Of a stretch of 48,920 bases of DNA, positions 5,364 to 24,291 are shown piece after piece. Position 1 is the first letter of the stretch. The number at the start of each line of letters is the position of its first letter. Below the pieces are notes generated by a model, which saw only the letters and a list, made by a program, of their open reading frames with translations, made no database searches and was not told the DNA's origin. A program made the position numbers and the translations under genes. Source of the DNA: Geobacter sp. (GTDB lineage: Bacteria; Desulfobacterota; Desulfuromonadia; Geobacterales; Pseudopelobacteraceae); the NCBI GenBank assembly GCA_025360785.1, contig JANYBN010000035.1, forward strand, positions 1 to 48,920, given 5' to 3'.

Positions 5364-6965
5364 TTACCCCAGAATTGCCTTCATGTCAGCATCAACCGTA
5401 GTGATCGGACTGATGTTGAAGTTCTCAACCAGGAAGTTGAGGACGTTGGGGGTTACGAAAGCCGGCAGTGACGGTCCGAGCTTGATGTTCTTGATGCCGA
5501 GGGAGAACAGTGTCAGGAGGATAACAACCGCCTTCTGCTCGTACCAGGAAAGGATCATCGACAGCGGCAGATCGTTGACGCCGCATTCAAAAGCACCGGC
5601 CAGGGCTATGGCGATCTGGATGGCCGAGTAGGCATCGTTGCACTGACCAACATCGAGCAGGCGCGGAATGCCGCCGATATCGCCGAATTCTAGCTTGTTG
5701 AAGCGGTATTTACCACAGGCCAGGGTCAGGATGACGGTGTCTTGCGGGAGCTTCTCGGCAAATTCGGTGTAGTAGTTACGTCCGGATTTGGCGCCGTCGC
5801 AACCGCCGATCAGGAAGAAATGCTTGATAGCGCCGGATTTTACCGCGGCGACAACTTTGTCGGCCACGCCCAGCACGGCATTGTGACCGAAGCCGGTCAG
5901 GATTTCCTGGCCTGGATTGTCCGGGAAGCCGGGGAGTTCGAGGGCCTTGTTGATGACTGCCGAGAAATCCCAGCCGTCAACGTGCTTCACATCCGGCCAT
6001 GCGACAAGGCCCCAGGTGTAGAGACGGTCTTTGTAGCTGTCCGAAGGCTTCTGAATGCAGTTGGTGTTGAAGATGATCGAGCCGGGGAAGTTAACGAACT
6101 CCTTGGCCTGGTCCTGCCAGGCGCCACCGAAGTTGCCGACCAGGTGCGTGTATTTCTTCAGGCCGGGATAGCCGTGAGCGGGGAGCATCTCGCCATGGGT
6201 GTAAATGTTGATTCCCTTGCCTTCAGTCTGCTTGAGCAGCTCTTCCAGCATTTTCAGGTCGTGGCCGGTTACCAGGATGGCCTTGCCGGCCTTGGTGCCG
6301 AGCTGTACAGCAGTCGGGACCGGGTGGCCGTAAGCATCGGTATGAGCGGTGTTGAGCAGTCCCATGACAGTCAGGTTCTGCTTGCCGCATTCCATGGCCA
6401 GACCGACAAATTCCATAAGTCCCAGGTTGGCGTCGGTTGTCGCTGCAAGCGCTTTCTGGAAGAAGGCCATTACGTCATCATCAGTTTTGCCCAGGATCAT
6501 GGCGTGATCCATATAAGCGGCCATACCCTTCAGGCCGTACATCAGGATCTCGATCACGGAACGGATATCTTCGTTGACATGCTGGGTATTGATGCCGTGG
6601 GCCTCACCCTGCGTCGTCATGCCGGCCAGATCATCAGCAGGCTTCCAATCGGCAACCGGACCGGAGAGAGTCACGCCTGCGGTAGCTTTTGCTATTTCTT
6701 TCAGTTCGTAGCAACGCTTGATCATGCCGCCGATGCGGGCCGGCTCGAAGTCCACATTGGTTACGGTGGTGAAAAGCCCTTCGATGGTAAAACGATCAAT
6801 CTCGGCATTGCGCCCCTGCTTGTCGGCATAAAGCGCCAGGCTTTTCAGGCCGTAAAGCAGGTGATCCTGCAATGCCGCTACGTCCGGTTTCTTGCCGCAT
6901 ACGCCTGAAATGTTACACCCCACTCCGTTTGCTGCCTGCTCACATTGGTTACAAAACATGCTCAT
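5364..6965 (-). CDS. hcp: Hydroxylamine reductase / hybrid cluster protein, class I
   Basis: The 533-residue protein matches Hcp throughout. Its N-terminal cysteines (Cys5, Cys8, Cys17, Cys23; C-x2-C-x8-C-x5-C) fit the 4Fe-4S cluster of class I enzymes from anaerobes, unlike the 2Fe-2S spacing in enterobacteria. Later motifs such as GHNAVLG, IGGCDGAK, TLACGKYRFN and DVGQCNDAYSA supply hybrid-cluster ligands. Hcp acts on hydroxylamine in vitro and is mainly linked to NO reduction and nitrosative stress in the cytoplasm. The ribosome site is GGGAGG 7 nt before ATG. It is monocistronic here, with no hcr partner. An FNR/CRP-family-type box lies upstream. Confidence 0.97.
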   Translation of the reverse strand: MSMFCNQCEQAANGVGCNISGVCGKKPDVAALQDHLLYGLKSLALYADKQGRNAEIDRFTIEGLFTTVTNVDFEPARIGGMIKRCYELKEIAKATAGVTLSGPVADWKPADDLAGMTTQGEAHGINTQHVNEDIRSVIEILMYGLKGMAAYMDHAMILGKTDDDVMAFFQKALAATTDANLGLMEFVGLAMECGKQNLTVMGLLNTAHTDAYGHPVPTAVQLGTKAGKAILVTGHDLKMLEELLKQTEGKGINIYTHGEMLPAHGYPGLKKYTHLVGNFGGAWQDQAKEFVNFPGSIIFNTNCIQKPSDSYKDRLYTWGLVAWPDVKHVDGWDFSAVINKALELPGFPDNPGQEILTGFGHNAVLGVADKVVAAVKSGAIKHFFLIGGCDGAKSGRNYYTEFAEKLPQDTVILTLACGKYRFNKLEFGDIGGIPRLLDVGQCNDAYSAIQIAIALAGAFECGVNDLPLSMILSWYEQKAVVILLTLFSLGIKNIKLGPSLPAFVTPNVLNFLVENFNISPITTVDADMKAILG

Positions 6966-23754: not shown

Positions 23755-23784
23755 TTGACGATCATCTCCCGATGGGTGTATATT
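23755..23784 (+). promoter_or_regulatory. Promoter of a mini transcription unit
   Basis: TTGACG (23755-23760) and TATATT (23779-23784) with an 18-nt spacer form a good sigma70-type promoter. The expected start near 23791 is followed by a perfect 10-bp palindrome CTCGTACGAG (23801-23810), which could act as an operator or a leader hairpin. Confidence 0.55.
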
Positions 23785-23830
23785 GATTATAAAGGTATTA
23801 CTCGTACGAGGATTGAAAGGAGTGATTACA

Positions 23831-23893
23831 ATGTTCACTGAAAAATTTCGTATCCGTCCTGTCTCCCACTGTAAAGAGGGATGCAGTCGTTAG
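23831..23893 (+). CDS. Putative 20-residue Cys-x3-Cys peptide
   Basis: The ORF encodes MFTEKFRIRPVSHCKEGCSR, with ATG preceded by AAAGGAG at a spacing of 8 nt. It lies about 40 nt after a good promoter and is followed at once by two hairpins, the second an intrinsic terminator, so promoter, ribosome site, ORF and terminator make a complete unit of about 165 nt. The peptide is basic and carries His13, Cys14 and Cys18. It could be a free peptide, a modified-peptide precursor, a leader peptide, or the coding part of a dual-function RNA. No neighbouring gene tells which, and I do not recognise a family. Confidence 0.5.
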   Translation: MFTEKFRIRPVSHCKEGCSR

Positions 23894-23915
23894 CCCGCCA
23901 TGATGATTGGCGGGC
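23893..23915 (+). other. Hairpin directly after the 20-residue ORF
   Basis: GCCCGCCA (23893-23900) pairs with TGGCGGGC (23908-23915) around a 7-nt loop. The stem begins at the last base of the stop codon. It has no T-run, so it is more likely a regulatory or stabilising hairpin than a terminator. Confidence 0.6.
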
Positions 23916-23925
23916 GCACGTAACG

Positions 23926-23953
23926 AAGCCCCTGTAGAAATGCAGGGGCTTTT
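23926..23953 (+). terminator. Intrinsic terminator of the mini unit
   Basis: AAGCCCCTG (23926-23934) pairs with CAGGGGCTT (23943-23951) around an 8-nt loop, followed by further T residues. It ends the short transcript started at about 23791. Confidence 0.7.
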
Positions 23954-24055: not shown

Positions 24056-24268
24056 TCAGCTCAAATTGTTGTAGTTACCACTGACATACGGCATTGTTGC
24101 CGGACGAACTTCATGGTCCAATTCCGGGATCGTTCCGCAGGTATCACAGAGATATTTATCACCGATGTACGCATACTCCGAATGTTCGCAATCGCCGCTC
24201 CATATCTTGATGTCGCAGGAACCGTCCCTTTTAGTGCGATCTTTAGTAATCAATGTTGTCGTCAACAT
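24056..24268 (-). CDS. Small Cys-rich protein of unknown function
   Basis: The start at 24268 is preferred because AGGGGGTG lies about 6 nt before that ATG; a GTG 9 nt upstream would overlap the ribosome site. The 70-residue product has Cys in SCDIKIW, GDCEHSEY and LCDTCGTIPEL, so a zinc- or cluster-binding knuckle is plausible. It is a single-gene unit with its own extended -10 promoter and terminator, which argues that it is real. No family is recognised. It shares the small size and CxxCG pattern of the protein at 31446 but no clear sequence similarity. Confidence 0.65.
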   Translation of the reverse strand: MLTTTLITKDRTKRDGSCDIKIWSGDCEHSEYAYIGDKYLCDTCGTIPELDHEVRPATMPYVSGNYNNLS

Positions 24269-24291
24269 ATCGAACACCCCCTTTTGAACTC

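Follow-up and report, generated by a model that had tools for sequence, protein, structure and literature searches.

The window considered here is a 48,920-nucleotide stretch of DNA from Geobacter sp. (Geobacterales; assembly GCA_025360785.1, contig JANYBN010000035.1, forward strand, 1-48,920). Positions 23755-23953 hold a compact unit for a 20-residue peptide ending in a Cys-x3-Cys motif, for which a first-pass annotation had described a promoter, a palindromic leader, a ribosome site, an open reading frame (ORF), a hairpin and a terminator. Each of these parts is present in the sequence where it had been placed. The peptide belongs to a family that is conserved at the level of its amino acids across phyla and is followed at a fixed distance by an RNA structure; we read it, tentatively, as a thiol or metal-ligand micropeptide. 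The parts of the unit are as follows.

23755..23784, + strand: sigma-70-type promoter, TTGACG - 18 nt - TATATT (-35 box at 23755-23760, -10 box at 23779-23784).
23801..23810, + strand: palindrome CTCGTACGAG in the 5' leader, recognized from the sequence.
23815..23822, + strand: Shine-Dalgarno (SD) sequence GAAAGGAG, likewise from the sequence.
23831..23893, + strand: 20-codon ORF MFTEKFRIRPVSHCKEGCSR, with ATG at 23831 and the stop TAG at 23891-23893.
23855..23884, + strand: codons 9-18, RPVSHCKEGC, the core conserved across phyla by sequence comparison.
23885..23893, + strand: 9-nt spacer AGTCGTTAG with the stop codon within it, conserved in length and not in amino acids.
23893..23915, + strand: hairpin 1, GCCCGCC / GGCGGGC, locked in position and covarying, its first base being the last base of the stop.
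23925..23953, + strand: intrinsic terminator, from the fold, consisting of a hairpin (23925-23952) and a U run.

Taken alone, the promoter match in the window is at chance level, with 1 found and 1.2 expected, although related copies have a TTGAC / TATAnT pair at the corresponding upstream position. The palindrome CTCGTACGAG is common to the window copy and its closest copy (L005) only, and is therefore probably not essential; GAAAGGAG or a near variant serves as the SD in almost every copy. The RNA from 23786 to 23953 has a predicted folding energy of -65.1 kcal/mol, compared with -42.3 +/- 3.9 for shuffled sequences (z -5.9). A chance ORF that happens to precede a terminator, an explanation with which the chance-level promoter match would agree, is refuted by conservation: among 58 related genomes, 37 have DNA matches to the 221-bp unit and 56 have the peptide, mostly in 1-2 copies each, and the peptide recurs in other phyla. 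We assign this explanation practically no probability, and the unit is more than a product of chance.

The core of the family can be written as [RP]xV[AST][HR]CxxG[CH]. A second copy is present in the window's own genome (C104:27722-27781). Copies in related genomes occupy two types of site, either shortly upstream of an operon encoding MacA, a MacB ATPase and a MacB permease or solo among unrelated neighbors; the C104 paralogue is of the first type and the window copy of the second. Scanning named genomes for RPV[ST][HR]CKEGC gave at least 116 stretches, nearly all of them short ORFs with an SD. Among the matches listed, most are from Geobacterales (Geobacter, Geomonas, Trichlorobacter, Geotalea, Oryzomonas and Pelotalea), and metagenome-assembled genomes (MAGs) of Omnitrophota and Bacillota are also represented. 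Cultured carriers include Trichlorobacter thiogenes, a Geomonas species and Geotalea sp. SG265. In profile searches, the peptide was found in 112 of 285 sampled genomes of the Omnitrophota, 41 of 299 of the Bacillota (the phylum of a Selenomonadales MAG), 4 of 240 of the Patescibacteria (the phylum of a Wolfebacteria MAG) and 17 of 395 of the window's own phylum, about half of these last lying outside the window's order and several of those being weak. Outside the Geobacterales, the core is looser, at about [RP]xV[AST]HCxxG[CH]. A phage origin was rejected, the strict pattern having no match among viral contigs.

The first-pass annotation had offered a peptide, a modified-peptide precursor and a dual-function RNA as possible products and had proposed that codon-level and RNA-level conservation be compared. 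The outcome of that comparison is a coding gene, in which synonymous sites vary and amino acids are constant. Across 30 units retrieved by DNA similarity, a procedure that does not favor codon changes, the ratio of nonsynonymous to synonymous change (pN/pS) is 0.13 over codons 1-18 and 0.05 over codons 9-14; in larger sets, which were retrieved by peptide pattern and are hence biased, it is 0.06-0.07 over codons 9-18. Selection acts on the amino acids of the peptide, and this supports the first of the three products. At codons 19-20, pN/pS is 0.88, from which it follows that the selected peptide ends at Cys18. The length up to this residue is constant and short (16-19 residues), C14-x3-C18 is nearly invariant, and the 20-residue peptide contains a single Pro and lacks a hydrophobic signal stretch. 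In two copies (L297 and L305), Cys18 is replaced by His, and both adjoin a copper ATPase gene. Codon 19 is TGA in many Bacillota copies and encodes Pro, Ser, His and others elsewhere; a selenopeptide with a selenocysteine insertion sequence was rejected because this TGA comes after Cys18 and reads as a stop. The third base of Pro10 and the base that follows codon 18 seem to covary (40 GC, 14 TA and 13 unpaired); this probably reflects subfamily lines and is not claimed.

Hairpin 1 is placed with reference to the codon at which this conservation ends. Of 109 Geobacterales units, 105 have a perfect 5-bp hairpin arm whose first base is the ninth after codon 18, compared with 9 units for a start one base earlier and 7.6 for shuffled sequence. 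The stop lies at codon 21 in 82 Geobacterales units and at codon 25 or 26 in 24, and because it moves while the distance is constant, the hairpin is keyed to codon 18 and not to the stop. Changes on both sides are seen in 5 of the 7 pairs of hairpin 1; the rows compared had been picked with their outer pairs formed, so that the 100% pairing is partly by construction. When a ribosome is reading codon 18, the point of mRNA entry would be near the start of the hairpin. The principal alternative to a free peptide is a nascent-chain sensor of the arrest-leader type, in which the ribosome would pause at the Cys codon of KEGC against the hairpin upon a metal, thiol or redox signal, and the pause would alter how the mRNA that follows (rrf2, copA or macAB) is folded, translated or transcribed. 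We regard this as a serious possibility that nonetheless falls short of being probable. In its favor are the spacing of 9 nt from codon 18, which stays the same wherever the stop lies and is maintained by structures that differ in sequence between phyla, the halt of conservation at Cys18 and the constant short length up to it.

The structures outside the Geobacterales are indeed of another kind. In Omnitrophota, Bacillota and some other Desulfobacterota, a different element, GTCCYGGGYANGACNNTAAACTGCCC, is found at the same distance, with a covarying GGGCA/UGCCC stem and invariant loop letters GAC and UAAAC/AAA. It stands behind the peptide in L256-L285, L288, L293, L296, L298 and L300-L302 and has no Rfam match at the gathering score. 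The idea that it is an independent repeat was rejected, as each genome has a single strict match, located behind the peptide. Two loci (L161 and L291) have a tandem duplicate of all or part of the RNA element behind one peptide ORF, the second copy in L161 lying shortly after the first. An element of this sort, covarying, invariant in its loop letters and present once per genome, would suit a dual-function or structural small RNA (sRNA) of which translation is a secondary feature and in which the hairpin, the element and the terminator act through base pairing or by binding a protein. So would codon 18, which is TGC in all 119 Geobacterales-like units, codon 14 using both Cys codons; this invariance hints at an extra constraint on the RNA. 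However, the RNA part varies between phyla while the peptide is constant, selection is at the level of amino acids, and there is no Rfam family at the gathering score. We therefore consider such an sRNA improbable. What stands of the dual-function proposal is the conservation at RNA level, in the form of the covarying hairpin and its fixed distance, against which the codon-level test favors a coding gene.

A terminator-like hairpin is present in 100 of the 109 Geobacterales units. Transcription attenuation, considered for this order, was rejected: pairing between the 3' arm of hairpin 1 and the terminator amounts to -5.7 kcal/mol versus -5.3 for shuffled sequence and never exceeds hairpin 1 or the terminator in strength. 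There being no special pairing between the two, there is no antiterminator in Geobacterales, which is a point against the nascent-chain sensor. Among 99 Geobacterales copies, 62 have a gene on the same strand within 400 nt downstream and 27 have a convergent gene on the opposite strand. The presence of their own terminator in most units and of a convergent gene in 27 of 99 indicates that many are free-standing and have no target in cis, which supports a free peptide and leaves the solo copies without anything for a sensor to control. A pause at codon 18 would, moreover, hold both Cys residues at the peptidyl-transferase center, an awkward position for binding a metal.

The genes around the copies differ between the groups. 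The window copy is preceded by a response-regulator/PAS/GGDEF/EAL gene and faces a convergent ORF (24059-24277, - strand) of 73 residues with Cys pairs (CDTC) and no Pfam family. Two further ORFs in the window, recognized by eye only and located ~17-22 kb from the unit, encode a hemerythrin-like protein (1156-1704, - strand) and a hybrid cluster protein (hydroxylamine reductase; 5364-6965, - strand). In the solo copies L008, L009, L010, L013 and L016, a conserved AAAAAAGACCnnnTATnTC lies 20-30 nt before the -35 box and is a possible activator or repressor site, and the MacAB-linked copies L018-L031 and L062 have in common a 5' leader, ATCCTGTTAGGAATTAAAT, between promoter and SD. A gene for a DUF362 Fe-S protein ends shortly before the peptide in ~30 Geobacterales copies (L079, L086, L093, L094, L100 and others), which then have MacAB, a LysM transglycosylase or a convergent phospholipase-D-like gene.

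In Omnitrophota, a redox or metal gene lies within 1.5 kb in 28 of 30 loci. An Rrf2 regulator gene is present in 20 of the 30, in many cases with a gene for a 4Fe-4S protein after it and sometimes one for Hcp, and the peptide precedes rrf2, usually with only a short gap; this leader position, together with that before copA or macAB at other loci, again favors the nascent-chain sensor. Other neighbors are ferredoxin, rubredoxin, desulfoferrodoxin, flavodiiron protein, ferritin, ArsC, an ArsB-like protein, ArsP and CusA. Upstream of the peptide, 21 of the 30 Omnitrophota loci (L256-L285) have a palindrome with the pattern GATAC-N7-GTATC, in most cases GATACnnnnnTGGTATC, which overlaps or flanks the likely promoter, often ahead of rrf2, and could be an operator of the adjoining Rrf2 regulator. 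In Bacillota, CopA is among the neighbors, a heavy-metal P-type ATPase was detected by motif in 7 of 20 loci, CsoR is upstream in L288 and L290 and MerR in L291 and L292, and in one Selenomonadales MAG the mercury methylation genes hgcA and hgcB lie directly upstream of the unit (L286:1573-2892, - strand). As the genomes are partly related, these Omnitrophota and Bacillota counts are not independent. Among the metal neighbors, curated models confirm HgcA, HgcB, MerR, heavy-metal/copper P-type ATPase, CusA, arsenate reductase, an HMA domain, the CsoR family, ArsB and ArsP; on the redox side, Hcp, flavodiiron protein and desulfoferrodoxin were also identified.

Many Geobacterales copies, including the paralogue in the window's genome, have a MacA/MacB operon downstream, which raises the possibility that the product is the precursor of a secreted or modified peptide (a ribosomally synthesized and post-translationally modified peptide, a signal or a bacteriocin) exported by the adjoining MacAB-type pump. 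This is very unlikely. The pump is absent from most solo, Omnitrophota and Bacillota copies, there is no leader-core layout, and near-invariance across phyla is unlike a signal or a bacteriocin. No maturase, protease or other enzyme was found in common among the neighbors at the Geobacterales, Omnitrophota and Bacillota loci, and the modified-peptide precursor that had been suggested is thus left without support. In all, the earlier interpretation of the unit is partly supported.

That interpretation had also held that the peptide is of no known family, and this is upheld. Neither Pfam nor NCBIfam has a match, DUF2946 not matching even at E 10, Rfam returns only matches below its gathering scores, and no solved structure in the PDB matches the peptide. 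In openly licensed papers, the peptide strings were found nowhere, and no paper linked Rrf2, a leader peptide and hybrid cluster protein. The portion considered here of a 50-genome RNA survey that includes Geobacter (PMC11109978) contains nothing resembling the unit. The Rfam family RF01867 (CC2171 sRNA) matches the whole unit weakly, at 19.5 bits, mainly through the SD, the hairpins and the terminator; this is a comparison at RNA level and far below the gathering score of 75.

Among the closest known systems are CutF and CruR, two metal-sensing translated ORFs that carry cysteine pairs and are coupled to RNA control further downstream (PMC9973294, PMC9426467). CutF of Rhodobacter capsulatus and CutF-like proteins (PMC9973294) resemble the present family in having a small CxxxC ORF, a stem-loop immediately after it and, as seen here in two phyla, downstream metal genes, but the peptides described here have 16-26 residues, no signal, CxxxC at the extreme end and their own terminator, and many copies have no downstream gene. 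CruR, a copper-responsive upstream ORF of the DUF2946 family (PMC9426467), is likewise a translated cysteine-pair ORF tied to copper genes with a proposed ribosome-mediated action; it has 145 residues, with CXXC and RAPP motifs 45 residues apart, which the present family lacks. Set against the features of both, C14-x3-C18 provides the cysteine-pair metal motif, the C-terminal RAPP or proline-rich stalling motif and the usual Sec signal are missing, and a position upstream of metal homeostasis genes is seen in part of the Bacillota and Omnitrophota and not in Geobacterales. The peptide may, by analogy, work somewhat like CutF or CruR. It is not a member of either group, given its lack of a DUF2946 match and of a stalling motif and its much smaller length. 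Short arrest or leader peptides of the SecM/TnaC type (PMC9426467) share with it a short ORF, a strong SD, conservation ending at one codon and a positioned RNA structure, and differ in that here there are no known arrest motif, free-standing copies lacking a target in cis and, in Geobacterales, no antiterminator.

The reading that we prefer, with less than even confidence, is that the unit is a mini-mRNA for a thiol or metal-ligand micropeptide that acts in thiophilic-metal or redox stress, with the hairpin setting the pace at which its translation ends. Its own promoter would give an mRNA of ~160 nt, from which the strong SD would direct translation of the 20-residue peptide, with the [H/R]-C-x3-C end as its conserved, functional part. 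This peptide would be a putative cytoplasmic thiol ligand for thiophilic metals or metalloids, Cu(I), Hg(II) and As(III) being examples, or would take part in redox or nitric oxide stress. The hairpin, 9 nt past the last Cys codon, would meet the leading edge of the ribosome during the reading of this codon and pace or gate the end of translation, and the terminator would then end the transcript. Directly behind this reading are the cross-phylum conservation of amino acids, the covarying hairpin, its fixed distance, the terminator and the metal and redox neighbors in two phyla. The replacement of Cys18 by His, another metal ligand, beside copper ATPase genes also counts for a metal ligand. We infer that the role to which neighbors point in other groups also holds for the Geobacterales copies, among them that in the window.

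Several observations weigh against the free micropeptide. It leaves unexplained why the distance between hairpin and codon 18 holds while the stop moves, a combination that the nascent-chain sensor explains better. In 35 of 119 units, Arg takes the place of His at residue 13. Near 61 Geobacterales loci, the window copy among them, no motif of a metal or redox gene was found, so that the metal/redox reading of this copy derives wholly from homology. A broader formulation, to which we also lend only limited credence, is that of a hitherto unrecognized and widespread bacterial module, a ribosome-coupled sensor or effector for thiophilic metals or redox stress, composed of a 16-20-residue HCxxxC peptide and a leading-edge hairpin and deployed as a free-standing gene at some loci and as a leader at others.

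Genes as short as these escape standard annotation, and despite its spread over Geobacterales, Omnitrophota and Bacillota, the family has no name in the databases and papers searched. Its constant distance between peptide and hairpin offers a clean test case for the joint action of a nascent peptide and an mRNA structure on the ribosome. Should the peptide indeed be a ligand or sensor of copper, mercury or arsenic, few metal-handling gene products would be smaller, and the groups of bacteria that carry it are important for metal cycling.
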